A program made the translations under genes and the position numbers. DNA of 36,579 bases from Pseudomonadota bacterium (GTDB taxonomy: Bacteria; Pseudomonadota; Gammaproteobacteria; JAKAQQ01): NCBI GenBank assembly GCA_021828045.1, contig JAKATI010000010.1, forward strand, positions 1-36,579, written 5' to 3'. How positions within the stretch are numbered: the stretch's first letter is position 1; every line of letters begins with the position of its first letter. The notes under the pieces were generated by a model that was given only the letters and a program-made list of their open reading frames with translations, was not told the DNA's origin and ran no database searches. This document shows, in pieces, positions 1,185 to 9,261 of this stretch.

Positions 1185-2852
1185 ATGACCGAAACCCGTA
1201 GCCGAAAACTGGGGATGGGAATGTCCCTTGCGGCCCTCCTGATGGGTGGTGGAGCCGTTTCCGGAAGGCTCCCGGCGCGGACCCTGGCCCCCGCACCGCC
1301 GCTCGCGGGCATGCCGCACTCCCAGCGCCAGGCGGCCAAGGATCTCCTGCAGGCTGCAGAGCTCCAGTCCGATACCGTACTCGCGGCACGTGCTGCCTGG
1401 CTGGCCTACGAGCGGGCCCATTTCCGCCTGGCTCGCCGGGCCCTCCTCTACTGGCAGACCCTGGATCCCCGGGATCTCCGGATCGACAATCTCCTGGTCC
1501 TGACCGATCTCGAGACGGGTCACTTGGGACAGTCGCTCACCGTCCTGACCGGGCTGGTCCGCCATTCGATGCATCCCCACCAGGCCATCGAAGCCCTCCT
1601 CCAGGTGCTCGCCCGGGCTTCGGAACGGGCCCCCCGCCTCCTTCTGTTCCAGAACTGGGTGCGGGAGGCCCCGACCGACCCGCTCGCCCACTGGTCCCTT
1701 GCCCGCGTGGCGGAAGCCGAGGGTTTGACCGGGTTGGCTGCCCACGAGTACGAGGAGTTGTTTCGCAAGAAACCCGAGGACCCCATGCTGGGACTCGCGC
1801 TGGCCAAATCCTGGATCCTCCTGGGAAGGACCCGGCGCGGGCTGGCCTTGGTCGGGAAGCTCGAAAGGAAAAACCTCCTGGGCACGGTTCCGGCCCGCGT
1901 CAAGACGGCGGATCTCTGGGTGCTGGCCGGGCATCCGAAGAAGGCGATCGGCCTGATCGATCGCCTCCCGGTCACAGCCGCCCCCTTTGTCCCACTCACC
2001 CGGATCTGGATCGAGATCCGTCAAAAACATGATCACCAGGCCGAAAGGATGCTCACCCGGCTGCTTGAGGAGAACACTTCGAATCGCACGGCGGGCTATT
2101 TTCTGGGTTATGTCGAGGCCGATCTCAAGCATTTCCGTCGGGCCCGGGCCTGGTTCCGCTATGCCCGGGTCGGTGCCCATTTCGTCAACTCGACGCGGGA
2201 AATTGCCCGGATCGAGATGGAGGCTCGGCCGCCCCACTTCCAGAAGGCGCTTTTGACCCTCGAGAAAATGTCCGGACTGGTTCCGGTCTGGGGACCCAGG
2301 CTCGTGACCGGTGGCGTCAACCTGTTTGTGCGGGCCGATCAGTCCTCGCGGGCGGTCTCGATCTTGGCCTGGGGACTCAAGCGCTGGCCGAAGAACACCG
2401 ACCTAGAGTACGCCCACGCCCTGCTCGAGATTCACCTGGGCCATTTTGCGAAGGCGATCCGGCTGCTCAAGGCGCTCATCCGGCGCTATCCGTCCGATCC
2501 CCTGTTCCTCAATGCACTGGGATATACCTGGACGATCCGTGGCCGGCATCTGCTGCAGGCAGCGATCCTGATCCACCACGCCCTCCTGCTTGATCCCTCG
2601 GATCCGGCGCTCCTGGACAGCCTGGGCTGGGTCGACTTCAAACTGCACCACTGGCAATCGGCCTATCGTCGCCTGGCCCTCGCGCATACGCTCAGGCCCG
2701 AGGAACCCACGATCGCATTCCATTGGGGCCGGGTCCTCTGGCAATCGGGTCATCCACAGGCGGCACGCCGCGTCTGGCAGGAGGCCCTGGAGCGGGCCCC
2801 CGAGGATGCGCGACTCAAGCGTGCCCTGAACCAGCCTTTGCCGCACCCTTGA
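1185..2852 (+). CDS. Tetratricopeptide-repeat protein, probably exported
   Basis: 555-aa ORF with hydrophobic N-terminus and repeated TPR-like helices (e.g. 'LDSLGWVDFKLHHWQSAYRRLALAHTLRPEEPTIAFHWGRVLWQSGHPQAARRVWQEALERAPED'). Upstream of lolB. Confidence 0.85.
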   Translation: MTETRSRKLGMGMSLAALLMGGGAVSGRLPARTLAPAPPLAGMPHSQRQAAKDLLQAAELQSDTVLAARAAWLAYERAHFRLARRALLYWQTLDPRDLRIDNLLVLTDLETGHLGQSLTVLTGLVRHSMHPHQAIEALLQVLARASERAPRLLLFQNWVREAPTDPLAHWSLARVAEAEGLTGLAAHEYEELFRKKPEDPMLGLALAKSWILLGRTRRGLALVGKLERKNLLGTVPARVKTADLWVLAGHPKKAIGLIDRLPVTAAPFVPLTRIWIEIRQKHDHQAERMLTRLLEENTSNRTAGYFLGYVEADLKHFRRARAWFRYARVGAHFVNSTREIARIEMEARPPHFQKALLTLEKMSGLVPVWGPRLVTGGVNLFVRADQSSRAVSILAWGLKRWPKNTDLEYAHALLEIHLGHFAKAIRLLKALIRRYPSDPLFLNALGYTWTIRGRHLLQAAILIHHALLLDPSDPALLDSLGWVDFKLHHWQSAYRRLALAHTLRPEEPTIAFHWGRVLWQSGHPQAARRVWQEALERAPEDARLKRALNQPLPHP

Positions 2853-2937
2853 CCAAATTTGCCGCGCAAGCCCTTGGCTTTAGCCATGGGGTGAGCGGGA
2901 TTCGCTGGCAAATTCGGAATACAAAGTCAGGTACAAG

Positions 2938-3317
2938 TTGAGCCACAACGTGGTATTCTCTTGCAAATACAAGGTGGTATAGTGTCCAAAGTATCGCCGC
3001 GATGTATTGGTAAACGGCGCGGATACTCGGCTCAAGGCTGTTATACAGCAGGTGTGCGATGAGACGCGGAGCGAGATACTGGAAATGGAGGTGATGCCGG
3101 ACCATGTGCATCTGCTGGTCGAGGTGGACCCGCAGTTCGGCGTCCATCATCTGGTGAAACGGATCAAAGGGCGATCCTCGCGCCTGCTGCGTCAGGAATT
3201 TCGCTGGTGTCGCACCGGTTCCCGAGCCTCTGGACCAACAGTTACTTCGTTTCTGCCGTTGGCGGTGCTCCGTTGGAGATCGTCGAACAGTACATTGAGC
3301 AGCAGAAGCATGTCTAA
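2938..3317 (+). pseudogene. tnpA: Disrupted IS200-type Y1 (HUH) transposase tnpA
   Basis: Frame reads ...LSHNVVFSCKYKVV*CPKYRRDVLVNGADTRLKAVIQQVCDETRSEILEMEVMPDHVHLLVEVDPQFGVHHLVKRIKGRSSRLLRQEF..., with TAG at 2980-2982 where the family has Trp in 'VWCPKYRR'. The C-terminus (RFPSLWTNSYFVSAVGGAPLEIVEQYIEQQKHV*) is in another frame, ending at TAA 3315-3317. Confidence 0.85.
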
Positions 3318-4893
3318 AGCGTCTGGCCCATCCTTCGTCCTGGAACTCCCGCTCGTGGTGAATCCCCACGAGAACCGGGTGTTGTCCGCGCGCTTCGAGG
3401 CGGGACGGCAACTCTATAACGCCGTGCTGGGAGAGGCTTTGCGACGGCTGGACCTCATGAAGCAGTCCAGGATTTGGGCCGCGGCACGCAAGATGCCCAA
3501 AGGCCCGCCGAAGTCCGCCGTACAGAAAGCGCGTGCCGCCGAATTTTCGCGGATTGCAAGGACGGTTGGTTTCACGGACTACGATCTGCAACGCTACGCC
3601 ACCCAATGCAAGAACGCCTGCTGGATGGGTGACCATCTGGACGCGCACGCGACGCAAAAAATCGGCACCCGGGCATTCCGGTCCGCACAACGCTATCAGT
3701 TCCGCACAGGCGGTCGTCCGCGATTCAAGCCCAGGTGGAAGGCGCTGGAATCCATGGAAGGCAAGAGCAATGCTACCGGGTTGCGCTGGCGGGAGGACCA
3801 TCTGGAATGGGGAAAGCTCCATCTCCAGGCATTCTTCGACCACAAGGACAAGTACGGCGTCCAGACCTTCGCTTTGCAATGCCCGGTGAAGTATTGCCGC
3901 CTGCTTCGGCGGACCATTCGCGGAAAAACTGTGTGGCATGTGCAGCTAATTATGGCCGGGGTTCCGAAATGGAAAGACAAAAACCCGATCCGCGCAGGCA
4001 AAACCAGCATCGACATTGGCCCGTCCACGATTGCCGTAGTCTCGGAAACCGATGCCTTTCTGGAGAAATTCTGCGCCAAGGTGCCCGACTTGCAGAAGGC
4101 AATTCGCCGGATGCAGCGGGCCATGGACCGCTCCCGGCGCGCATCCAACCCCGACAACTACAACCGAGACGGGACGATCAGGAAACCGGAGAAAGGCGAG
4201 AGGCTGCAATGGGTGTTCACCCAAGGGTACTTGCGTCTGCGCTCCCGTCTGAAGGAATTACATCGTCGGTTGGCGGCCTATCGCAGAGCAGAACACGGTC
4301 ACCTGGCGAACCGGGTCATCACCACCGGCGATACGGTGATGGCTGAGAAATTGAGTTACGAGGCTTTTCAGCGGATGTTTGGCAGAAGCATCCGCGACCG
4401 GGCTCCTGGGGGATTCATGAATCATCTGCGTCGCAAGGCTGCCAGTGCCGGTGGCGAGGTGGTGGAGTTCCCGACCCGGACCACCCAGCTCTCGCAAAGC
4501 TGTCAGTGCGGAGAGGTGGTGAAAAAGCCGTTGTCGCTACGCTGGCACGATTGCTCGTGTGGCGTACATGCGCAACGGGATTTGTATAGTGCGTATCTTG
4601 GCCTCCATGTTCAGAAAGAGTGTGGGGGCTGGAGACTGGACACCGAATCGGCCCGCGAGGGTTGGTGTGCTGCGGAATCGCTGCTGGAGAAAGCGGTGTC
4701 TGGTACCGTACAAGCTGCGAATGGCAGGCCGTTGCCTGCCAGCTTGGGCATTCGTGCCCGAGACAGAGCGGTTCTTTCTCGAAGGTGTAACGGTGCAGAG
4801 GAAGATCCCGGATGTTGTAGCCATGCTGCCGTAATGGGCATGGCGAGAGCCGGGAAGACCTCTGCATCCACCACTAAAACCCCCCGGCTTTAG
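3310..4893 (+). CDS. tnpB: TnpB (RuvC-like RNA-guided nuclease of the IS200/IS605 group)
   Basis: ATG at 3310 overlaps the tnpA stop (ATGTCTAA). RuvC-like motifs: 'SIDIGPSTIAVVSE', 'VMAEKLSYEAF', 'QRDLYSAYLG'; zinc ribbon 'SCQCGEVVKKPLSLRWHDCSCG'. The track's ORF 3007-4893 joins a tnpA remnant to it. Confidence 0.9.
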   Translation: MSKASGPSFVLELPLVVNPHENRVLSARFEAGRQLYNAVLGEALRRLDLMKQSRIWAAARKMPKGPPKSAVQKARAAEFSRIARTVGFTDYDLQRYATQCKNACWMGDHLDAHATQKIGTRAFRSAQRYQFRTGGRPRFKPRWKALESMEGKSNATGLRWREDHLEWGKLHLQAFFDHKDKYGVQTFALQCPVKYCRLLRRTIRGKTVWHVQLIMAGVPKWKDKNPIRAGKTSIDIGPSTIAVVSETDAFLEKFCAKVPDLQKAIRRMQRAMDRSRRASNPDNYNRDGTIRKPEKGERLQWVFTQGYLRLRSRLKELHRRLAAYRRAEHGHLANRVITTGDTVMAEKLSYEAFQRMFGRSIRDRAPGGFMNHLRRKAASAGGEVVEFPTRTTQLSQSCQCGEVVKKPLSLRWHDCSCGVHAQRDLYSAYLGLHVQKECGGWRLDTESAREGWCAAESLLEKAVSGTVQAANGRPLPASLGIRARDRAVLSRRCNGAEEDPGCCSHAAVMGMARAGKTSASTTKTPRL

Positions 4894-5606: not shown

Positions 5607-6212
5607 ATGACCAAACGCGGAACAGTCCTTTTGACCGGTAGCGGTCTCCTTCTTGCGGTTGCCGTGGCCCTGGCGGCGACTCCGCTCCCGACCCGGGCGC
5701 CCTCACCCCAGGCACTCTGGAGGCAAATCCGTTTTCTCGCCCGGACGCATGCCGTCATGCCGGGAAGTCACCCGTTCCAGCCTGGTTCCCGCACGGTCGA
5801 TCTCTTTACCGTAGATCTGGCCAATGGCACCGCGCGGGCGGCGATCCTCCGGGCCGGGGGCATCCGGCGCGTCCTCCGTTATCCCGTGGGGAGCCTCCTC
5901 ATCAAGGAAAACTACGACCCGAACCGGAAACTGGATGGGGTGACCGCCATGCTCAAGCTTGCCGGCTACGATCCCACCGACCGGAACTGGGTCATGGCCG
6001 CCTATCGCCCCCAGGGTCGGGTCGTTGCCTATGGGCGGGTGGCCTCCTGCATTGGCTGTCATGCCCTGGCAAGCCGCTCCGATTTTGTCTTTGCACCTCC
6101 TCCTCGCGTGCTGCTCTCGGTTGCGGTCTGGCGGGCCTTTTTCCCGGAGCAGAAGATTTCCCCCCTCTACCGCAGGCTTCTGGCACTGCACCCCCGTGCG
6201 ATCGTGAGGTAG
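5607..6212 (+). CDS. Cytochrome P460-like c-type haem protein, exported
   Basis: Signal peptide, 'PVGSLLIKENYDPNRKLDGVTAMLKLAGYDPTDRNWVMAAYRPQGRVVAYGRVASCIGCHALASRSDFVF', with CxxCH (CIGCH) near the C-terminus in cytochrome P460-like context. Confidence 0.8.
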   Translation: MTKRGTVLLTGSGLLLAVAVALAATPLPTRAPSPQALWRQIRFLARTHAVMPGSHPFQPGSRTVDLFTVDLANGTARAAILRAGGIRRVLRYPVGSLLIKENYDPNRKLDGVTAMLKLAGYDPTDRNWVMAAYRPQGRVVAYGRVASCIGCHALASRSDFVFAPPPRVLLSVAVWRAFFPEQKISPLYRRLLALHPRAIVR

Positions 6213-6213
6213 C

Positions 6214-6236
6214 GTCAAGCCCCGGGGGGGCTTGAC
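6214..6236 (+). terminator. Perfect 10-bp inverted repeat after the P460 gene (terminator-like, no immediate U tract)
   Basis: GTCAAGCCCC-GGG-GGGGCTTGAC, starting 2 bp after the stop codon; followed by agctgttttctttt. Confidence 0.5.
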
Positions 6237-6260
6237 AGCTGTTTTCTTTTCTGATATCCA
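6232..6260 (+). promoter_or_regulatory. Candidate sigma70 promoter TTGACA-17-TATCCA
   Basis: TTGACA 6232-6237, 17-bp spacer, TATCCA 6255-6260. Confidence 0.55.
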
Positions 6261-6269
6261 ATAGGTCCA

Positions 6270-6392
6270 ATGAACAGCAACTCCAAGTACGGAGGAAGAC
6301 CACGGGGAGGGGAGCGATCCCCGGTCGTGGCTTCGCTGCTTTTCAGAAACGGACTTCGTGATGAACCGGCCAAACCCGAACCCGACCTTTGA
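6270..6392 (+). CDS. Candidate 40-aa microprotein (or part of a small RNA)
   Basis: ATG 6270 to TGA 6390-6392: MNSNSKYGGRPRGGERSPVVASLLFRNGLRDEPAKPEPDL. Lies between a promoter and a terminator of its own; not in the supplied ORF track. Confidence 0.35.
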   Translation: MNSNSKYGGRPRGGERSPVVASLLFRNGLRDEPAKPEPDL

Positions 6393-6394
6393 CT

Positions 6395-6427
6395 GAGCCG
6401 TCTCCATCCGGAGAGGGCGGGTTTTTG
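6395..6427 (+). terminator. Rho-independent terminator candidate
   Basis: TCTCCATCCGGAGA hairpin embedded in AACCCG...CGGGTT pairing, followed by TTTTTGTCCTTT. Confidence 0.55.
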
Positions 6428-6516
6428 TCCTTTCATCACGGGGCTTGGAAACTCGGCCTGACGTCGGTCATGAAAAAAACCGGAGCGGGCCGTTCAACTT
6501 AGCTTAGGAGTCATCC

Positions 6517-9261
6517 ATGAGAAAACGCATCATGTCGGCATGGGCCGTGCCCATGGCGGTGCTCTTCGCCTTGGCGGGAGCCCCCCCGGTCCTTGCCCAA
6601 TCCCTTCCCGGCGGCAGTGTCATGCAAATGCATGGCATGGTGCCGCAAGTCGTGAAACAGGCGGTCTACCTGGGGGCGCACAGTCCCTCTGCACCGATGA
6701 CCGTGACGGTGGGCCTCAAACTGTCCCATCCCAATGCCTTGAACCGCTTTCTCGGCGAACTTCAGGATCCCGCGAGTCCGATGTACCGTCATTTCCTGAC
6801 GCCCGCCGAGTTTACCGAGAAGTACGGTCCCACGAGCGCCGAAGTCACCACCGTCACCGGCTTCCTCCAGAGCCGGGGCATCCGCGTGACCGGAGTGTCG
6901 TCGAACCGTCTCCTCATCCATACCGAGGGCACGGCCGGAACCTATGAAGCAGCCTTGGGTGTGGTGCTCGAGGACTATGCCTACCATGGGCGAACGTTCT
7001 TTGCTCCCTCTCACGCGCCGGTATTGCCCGTCTCGATTGCAGGCGACGTCGAGTCGCTGATCGGTCTTTCGGATGCGGCCGTGATGCGCCCCATGTGGAT
7101 CCGGGGGCCTGTCACTACCCTCCCGAAAAGCGAAAGCACGGCGGCGGCCACTCCCTCGGGTTACTCCCCCCAGCAGATTGCGACCGTCTATGACTGGCCA
7201 TCGATCACCAATACCGCTGACGGGTCCGGGGTGACCATTGCCAATGCCACGGCCGAGAGCACGAACCTCTCGATGAGTGACCTCGATACCTTCTGGAACC
7301 AGTACGGCTTGCCCACCCATACCGTCAATGTCATTCCCGTCGATGGCACGACGCGCTCCACCGGGGGCACGATCGAGACCACGATCGACGAGGAACGGAG
7401 CGGGGCCATGGCTCCCGGCGCCACCCTCGACGTCTACGACGCGGACAGCGCGACCGACCAGGACTTCACGGACACCTACAACACGATCGTCACCAACAAC
7501 ACCGCCCAGGTGATGACCACGAGCTGGGGAGAACCGGAGTCGGATGCCTCCTCCACGACCCTGTCGACCGATGACAGCATCTTCAAGCAGGCGGCGGCCC
7601 AGGGAATCTCGGTCTTCGCGGCGGCCGGCGACAACGGCTCCTCCGACGGGACAAGCAACCCGGATACGGCGGATTTTCCGTCCTCGGATCCGTATGTGCT
7701 GGCAGCCGGAGGGACGACCCTGACCCTGACCAGCAGCAATACGCGCTCGAGCGAGATTGCCTGGTCGAGCGGGGGAGGGGCGGAGAGTGCGGTATTCAGC
7801 GAACCCTCCTGGCAGGTCGGAACCGGCGTGCCCCAGAACGGCTACCGCAATACCTCGGACCTCGCGATGGATGCCGATCCCAACACGGGGTACTCGGTCT
7901 ACGAGGCCGGAAGCTGGAGCGTCTACGGCGGGACCAGTTTCGTGGCACCGCAGCTCGCGGGACTCTGGGCGGATGGGGTTGCGGACAATGGCGGAACCCG
8001 GCTCGGCCAGGCCAACCAGGCCGAATACGGGGTTGCCAACTCGGCCAACTACGCCAATGACTTCTACGATGTGACCTCGGGCAGCAACGGCGCCTTCAGC
8101 GCGGGCGTCGGCTGGGATCACCCGACCGGCTGGGGCACCCCCGTGGCGACGAACCTGATCGCCAACATCGTGACTCCCTCCTCGGGCGGCGGTGGCGTGG
8201 CGGCGCCCACGGCCTCGAACGGCTCGGTCACGACGACCGAGAACACGGCGGTTTCAGGGACGCTTTCGGCCACCGGGCCGAGCGGTGCGGCGCTCACCTT
8301 CGCGATCGTGGCCCAGCCCGCGAACGGGTCGGTGACCCTGACCAACAGCTCGACCGGGGCCTTCACCTACACGCCCGCCAGCGGGTTCTCGGGAACGGAT
8401 TCCTTCACCTTCAACGCCTCGGACAGCGGCGGGACCTCGAATACCGCGACCGAGACCGTGACGGTCCAGGCTCCGACCGTGGCCGCGCCGACCGCGAGCA
8501 ACGGTTCGGTGACCACCAACGAGAACACGGCGGTTTCGGGGACGCTTTCGGCCACCGGACCGAGCGGTGCGGCGCTCACCTTCGCGATCGTGGCTCAGCC
8601 CGCGAACGGGTCGGTGACCCTGACCAACAGCTCGACCGGGGCCTTCACCTACACGCCCGCTAGCGGGTTCTCGGGAACGGATTCCTTCACCTTCAACGCC
8701 TCGGACAGCGGTGGGACCTCGAATACCGCGACCGAGACCGTGACGGTGAAAGCGGCCTCCACCGGACCATGTCCCACGGGCTATGCCACCTATACCGGGA
8801 GGCTTTCCGGCAGTGGGGACTATGCCTACCAGCCCAACGACAACTACTACTACGCGAGCCGCGGAAACGAGGCTGGGCTGCTCTACGGACCCGGCGGAAC
8901 CAACTTCCAGCTCTATCTCTACCAGTGGAACCCCTGGTTCGGGTGGGTCAACGTGGCCGCCGGAACCGGTGGGGGAACGGACCAGAGCGTGAGCTACGAC
9001 GGCAGTTCCGGTTACTACGTCTGGCTCGTCTACTCGAACTACGGGGCCGGAGCCTATACCTTCTGCCTGAGCTATCCGGGCGAGACCGGTGCAGTGAGCT
9101 CCGTCCATTCGCATCCGGCTGGCATGCCAAGGACCCCTCCGCAGTCGGTCCGGAGCAGCACTCCGGCCAGTGGGGGATCCGGCTCGATGGGACTCCTCGG
9201 CCTTCTGGCCCTGGCCTCGATCCTGATCGTGCGGGGATTGCGCGAACCCCGTAAATCCTGA
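6517..9261 (+). CDS. Secreted S53 (sedolisin/kumamolisin-type) serine-carboxyl peptidase with two Ig/cadherin-like repeats and C-terminal anchor
   Basis: Signal peptide; pro-kumamolisin prodomain ('PASPMYRHFLTPAEFTEKYGPT'); catalytic-region motifs 'TIETTIDEERSGAMAPGATLDVYDAD' and 'YGGTSFVAPQLAGLWA'; calcium-site region 'GVGWDHPTGWGTP'; two 94-aa repeats; C-terminal 'GGSGSMGLLGLLALASILIVRGLREPRKS'. Confidence 0.9.
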   Translation: MRKRIMSAWAVPMAVLFALAGAPPVLAQSLPGGSVMQMHGMVPQVVKQAVYLGAHSPSAPMTVTVGLKLSHPNALNRFLGELQDPASPMYRHFLTPAEFTEKYGPTSAEVTTVTGFLQSRGIRVTGVSSNRLLIHTEGTAGTYEAALGVVLEDYAYHGRTFFAPSHAPVLPVSIAGDVESLIGLSDAAVMRPMWIRGPVTTLPKSESTAAATPSGYSPQQIATVYDWPSITNTADGSGVTIANATAESTNLSMSDLDTFWNQYGLPTHTVNVIPVDGTTRSTGGTIETTIDEERSGAMAPGATLDVYDADSATDQDFTDTYNTIVTNNTAQVMTTSWGEPESDASSTTLSTDDSIFKQAAAQGISVFAAAGDNGSSDGTSNPDTADFPSSDPYVLAAGGTTLTLTSSNTRSSEIAWSSGGGAESAVFSEPSWQVGTGVPQNGYRNTSDLAMDADPNTGYSVYEAGSWSVYGGTSFVAPQLAGLWADGVADNGGTRLGQANQAEYGVANSANYANDFYDVTSGSNGAFSAGVGWDHPTGWGTPVATNLIANIVTPSSGGGGVAAPTASNGSVTTTENTAVSGTLSATGPSGAALTFAIVAQPANGSVTLTNSSTGAFTYTPASGFSGTDSFTFNASDSGGTSNTATETVTVQAPTVAAPTASNGSVTTNENTAVSGTLSATGPSGAALTFAIVAQPANGSVTLTNSSTGAFTYTPASGFSGTDSFTFNASDSGGTSNTATETVTVKAASTGPCPTGYATYTGRLSGSGDYAYQPNDNYYYASRGNEAGLLYGPGGTNFQLYLYQWNPWFGWVNVAAGTGGGTDQSVSYDGSSGYYVWLVYSNYGAGAYTFCLSYPGETGAVSSVHSHPAGMPRTPPQSVRSSTPASGGSGSMGLLGLLALASILIVRGLREPRKS
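8197..8757 (+). repeat. Two tandem 282-bp (94-aa) repeats inside the S53 peptidase gene
   Basis: 8197-8478 and 8479-8757: VAAPTASNGSVTT(T/N)ENTAVSGTLSATGPSGAALTFAIVAQPANGSVTLTNSSTGAFTYTPASGFSGTDSFTFNASDSGGTSNTATETVTV, nearly identical also at DNA level. Confidence 0.95.

Follow-up and report, generated by a model that had tools for sequence, protein, structure and literature searches.

A probable structured leader RNA, with its promoter, ahead of an S53 protease gene in six species of one bacterial family

The 36,579-nucleotide stretch of DNA analyzed here (the window) is contig C3 of an incomplete genome, G000, which comprises 112 contigs. Between a P460-like cytochrome gene (5607 to 6212) and a gene for an S53 protease that starts at 6517, the window contains a 304-bp gap, which most probably holds the promoter and a structured 5′ leader RNA of the protease gene. 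Comparison of the genome sequences of six species establishes the predicted promoter, the predicted three-domain fold of the leader, and the linkage of both to one gene. The leader would be cotranscribed with the protease and would act in cis, setting protease output. The protease gene (6517 to 9261) encodes a secreted protein of the pro-kumamolisin type that contains a pro-kumamolisin activation domain; the solved structures related to it are kumamolisins and sedolisins, and its homology to solved kumamolisins places it in the S53 (sedolisin/kumamolisin) family. The protease gene, the promoter, the leader domains, and the small features described below all lie on the forward strand. At the protease C terminus (window positions about 9160 to 9258), GGSGSMGLLGLLALASILIVRGLREPRKS resembles a glycine-rich motif followed by a membrane segment and a basic tail and, as judged by eye, is a possible C-terminal sorting anchor.

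The preliminary description treated the region after the P460 gene as a compact orphan locus, a view that comparison with related genomes does not support: the same unit is present directly upstream of the orthologous S53 protease gene in six species. Orthologs of the protease are found in eight of the nine genomes of the bacterial family, and in six species belonging to two genera the unit consists of TTGAC(A), TTTCTG, a TATCCA-like −10 element, CAATGA, about 250 nt of leader, and the protease ATG. The gene on the other side of the unit varies (the P460 gene in two species, the LolB gene in three, and, in the remaining one, unrelated sequence), which indicates that the unit travels with the protease rather than with the upstream gene. 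In addition, the leader ATG and the protease ATG are 247 to 266 nt apart in all six species, and this nearly constant spacing marks the unit as a 5′ leader. The conserved element runs beyond position 6427, where the locus had been thought to end, and reaches the start of the protease gene at 6517.

The promoter (6232 to 6260) has a −35 element, TTGACA, at 6232 to 6237, a 17-bp spacer, and a −10 element, TATCCA, at 6255 to 6260, as previously proposed, with an additional TG at 6252 and 6253 before the −10 element. It therefore has the −35 element, extended −10 element, and 16- to 18-bp spacing of a sigma-70-type promoter, and the retention of the −35/TG/−10 arrangement in six species places it beyond a chance match. 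A strict promoter scan did not list it, since TATCCA does not have T as its sixth base. The perfect 10-bp inverted repeat reported earlier, GTCAAGCCCC/GGGGCTTGAC, is present at 6214 to 6223 and 6227 to 6236, and its right arm overlaps the −35 element. With the T-rich tail that follows, this repeat (6214 to 6236) is predicted to form a strong hairpin resembling a terminator (z score of −2.9) and is also matched by a terminator scan; it is a probable intrinsic terminator of the P460 gene and may thus also end the P460 transcript. Similar inverted repeats occur near the −35 element in G002 and G004 and are not evident in G001, G006, and G008, so the repeat is not a constant part of the promoter-leader unit.

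The internal hairpin and the structured RNA suggested in the preliminary description are both borne out, the latter as a three-domain fold with comparative support in six species. In domain 1 (6268 to 6349), helix P1 (UGAA.AGC/GCU.UUCA) closes the hairpins P2 (CUCC/GGAG) and P3. Domain 2 (6350 to 6444) consists of the long stem P4 (5′ arm at 6354 to 6365 and 3′ arm at 6431 to 6443) and an apical hairpin, and it encloses the region at about 6395 to 6427 that had been taken for a terminator. Domain 3 (6445 to 6519) contains the conserved UUGGAAAC, stem P5, the Shine-Dalgarno sequence AGGAG at 6506 to 6510, and the protease start codon at 6517 to 6519. The hairpin core GGGGAGCGATCCCC has no other exact match in the genome. 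When the three domains were folded one sequence at a time, the same architecture was obtained independently in all six species. Consensus folding with RNAalifold gave z scores of −5.0, −8.9, and −4.0 for domains 1, 2, and 3, respectively, against 300 column shuffles, none of which was as good in any domain, and the consensus fold favors the plus strand in each of the three. The full-length leaders also beat nearly all dinucleotide shuffles, with z scores of −3.3 for the window and −3.7 for G002. Taken alone, the helix that closes domain 1 does not reach significance in single-sequence shuffles; its support comes from the comparison.

Base-pair changes on both sides of a helix are seen in P1, P2, P4, and P5. 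Because MAFFT misregisters P2 and P4 between the two clusters into which the sequences fall, P1, P4, and P5 were registered by hand. In this registration, P1 has A-U versus G-C at two pairs; P4 has G-C versus C-G, U-A versus G-C, A-U versus C-G, and U-A versus A-U; and P5 shows further two-sided changes. P4 has 1 unpaired cell in 54. The comparison comprises six sequences in two clusters, with the window and G002 close to each other, so that independent compensatory events are fewer than cells. P2 shows U-A versus C-G in a model-based alignment, with a covariation score unmatched in 500 shuffles.

Only G004, G001, G008, and G006 were used to build covariance models, R1 for domain 1 and R2 for domain 2. 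R1 finds the window leader at 6269 to 6361 (E value of 0.0017) and R2 finds it at 6349 to 6455 (E value of 0.00013), in each case as the best match in the window, and these models, built without the window and G002, likewise recover the G002 leader at the right places. R1 finds a single strong copy in the genome of each of the four training species and no other strong match in the bacterial family. Among 369 genomes of the class, either model matches only G004, which is a loose bound on the distribution, as the strict filters also missed G000. The earlier remark that no known riboswitch or small-RNA family was recognized at the locus stands: in a search of Rfam 15, only two tRNAs in the window reach the gathering threshold, the leader and its homologs fall below it, and relaxed Rfam searches of the leader and its homologs give only chance-level matches. 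The leader thus appears, from these searches, to be a new, narrowly distributed candidate RNA family. A 27-nt match found in L004, a distant genome, falls within a coding gene and was dismissed as chance.

The proposed terminator at about 6395 to 6427 is not an independent one; its stem is separated from the U-run and forms the apical part of the larger, conserved domain 2 stem. This bears on the reading of the locus as an independent small RNA of about 150 to 160 nt, transcribed from its own promoter, ending at the terminator-like site near 6427, and acting in trans. Such an RNA would account for the conserved promoter, the strong fold, and the T-run that follows the hairpin in the window, G002, G006, and G008, but the T-run is absent in G004 and G001, and where it is present in the window and G002 it pairs within P4. 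No conserved 3′ terminator was found in the six species, whereas conservation and structure continue past 6427 through domain 3 to the protease start, and the location is always directly upstream of the same gene, all of which makes a stand-alone small RNA improbable. A conserved expression platform was also sought in the six species, and none is visible. No switch that sequesters the Shine-Dalgarno sequence was found in the six leaders; this sequence is partly paired in all six species with or without the leader, and the leader makes no systematic difference to its accessibility. The 5′ leader does contain a conserved, aptamer-like structured domain, in the sense of a fold upstream of one gene, the aptamer itself being putative.

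The 40-codon ATG-to-TGA frame at 6270 to 6392 is present and encodes the 40 amino acids given previously. Neither its length nor its sequence is conserved: the frame that starts at the same ATG has 40, 30, 14, 9, 12, and 46 codons in the six species, with no common sequence. In the nearest relative (G002, also L025, the MAG DBS1-2.bin8, 79% identical to the window in P460), one inserted base after codon 18 breaks the frame and leaves 30 codons. The length is unremarkable: of first-order Markov sequences with the same composition, 45% have 39 open codons following a fixed ATG. The frame has no Pfam match, and no conserved reading frame with protein-like constraint was found across the six species; as far as codon comparison can tell, the frame is incidental. 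The one feature that speaks for translation from the AUG at 6270, whether of a microprotein or of a leader peptide that regulates the protease, is the motif CAATGA at the start of the frame, which is identical in all six species and puts the AUG only a few nucleotides from the predicted transcription start. The UGA of this motif, however, belongs to helix P1, and that can account for some of the invariance; with the frameshift and the unshared lengths, translation of this near-leaderless frame is very improbable. The case illustrates that a leader RNA can resemble a microgene when viewed in a single genome. That the conserved region is instead a DNA-level regulatory site made of transcription factor operators has next to no probability, since the inverted repeat that overlaps the −35 element in three species is not evident in the other three, and RNA pairing fits both the plus-strand preference and the compensatory changes, which extend over about 170 nt past the start.

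For the preferred reading, a structured 5′ leader of the protease gene, RNA polymerase would start at about 6266 to 6268 from the sigma-70-like promoter with its extended −10 element, and the leader of about 250 nt would fold into three consecutive domains ahead of the Shine-Dalgarno sequence and the ATG of the protease gene at 6517. Most likely, the leader would act through its folding to control translation or mRNA lifetime. We put the probability of a regulated element that responds to a ligand, an ion, pH, or a protein just short of even, and we regard a constitutive stabilizer or insulator of a strongly expressed mRNA for a secreted protein as a serious candidate of similar, slightly lower weight, with the remainder left to other modes of leader action. 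A more specific proposal, offered tentatively and rather unlikely, is a new class of riboswitch or environmental-sensing RNA controlling a secreted acid protease, in which domains 1 and 2 would sense pH, a ligand, a metal, or a peptide; initiation at the invariant AUG close to the 5′ terminus might also take part. The S53 proteases of the kumamolisin and sedolisin types are acid active, and pH is therefore a natural first candidate for the signal, as a suggestion only. If the leader senses pH, a metal, or a peptide, it would reveal a means by which uncultured bacteria adjust the export of a protease to their environment.

Stabilizing 5′ UTRs of the ompA type belong to strongly expressed exported proteins. 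The leader shares with them stable stems close to the 5′ terminus of an mRNA for an exported protein, but it is much longer and has three conserved domains, and its stabilizing role is putative. The pH-responsive element (PRE) of Escherichia coli alx (PMC3874183) is likewise a long structured 5′ leader of a gene tied to the environment; the likeness is one of analogy, and the leader described here, known from comparative sequence and predicted folds, is an analog rather than a relative. Orphan structured 5′ leaders and riboswitch candidates found by comparative genomics (PMC2864571, PMC6429828) were likewise recognized by conserved structure, compensatory changes, one kind of downstream gene, and Rfam-type evidence. 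Compared with these, the present leader is much narrower in distribution (six species of one bacterial family), has no visible expression platform, and is unmatched by the Rfam 15 models, and its ligand is only hypothetical. A limited literature search for leader RNAs of sedolisin or kumamolisin genes found none. The leader is thus a candidate RNA family with comparative support that is tied to a class of acid protease genes.

Genus g2 also has the orthologous protease, and R1 and R2 find no recognizable copy of the leader there. The g2 S53 ortholog is preceded by a different leader of about 290 nt (L038, about 1117 to 1400; L037, reverse strand, about 2850 to 3170), which differs little between two species, is strongly foldable (z score of −2.5 in G003), and is unrelated in sequence to the leader of the other six species. 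A homologous fold in the g2 leaders is not claimed, as forcing a P4-like helix costs 12 to 15 kcal/mol and the two models miss it.

Only the window and G002 have the P460-like gene between LolB and the leader. A homolog is located elsewhere in G003 and G005, and none was found in G001 and G004, so the gene may be a later insertion at this site. Another P460 homolog, in L026, is followed by unrelated sequence. Farther upstream in the window, the ORF at 3007 to 4893 has two joined domains, one of the IS200-type Y1 transposase kind and the other a Cas12f1-like/TnpB zinc finger. It is located between a TPR gene and the LolB gene, which are adjacent in G008 and G006, and it therefore looks like an IS200/IS605-type insertion.
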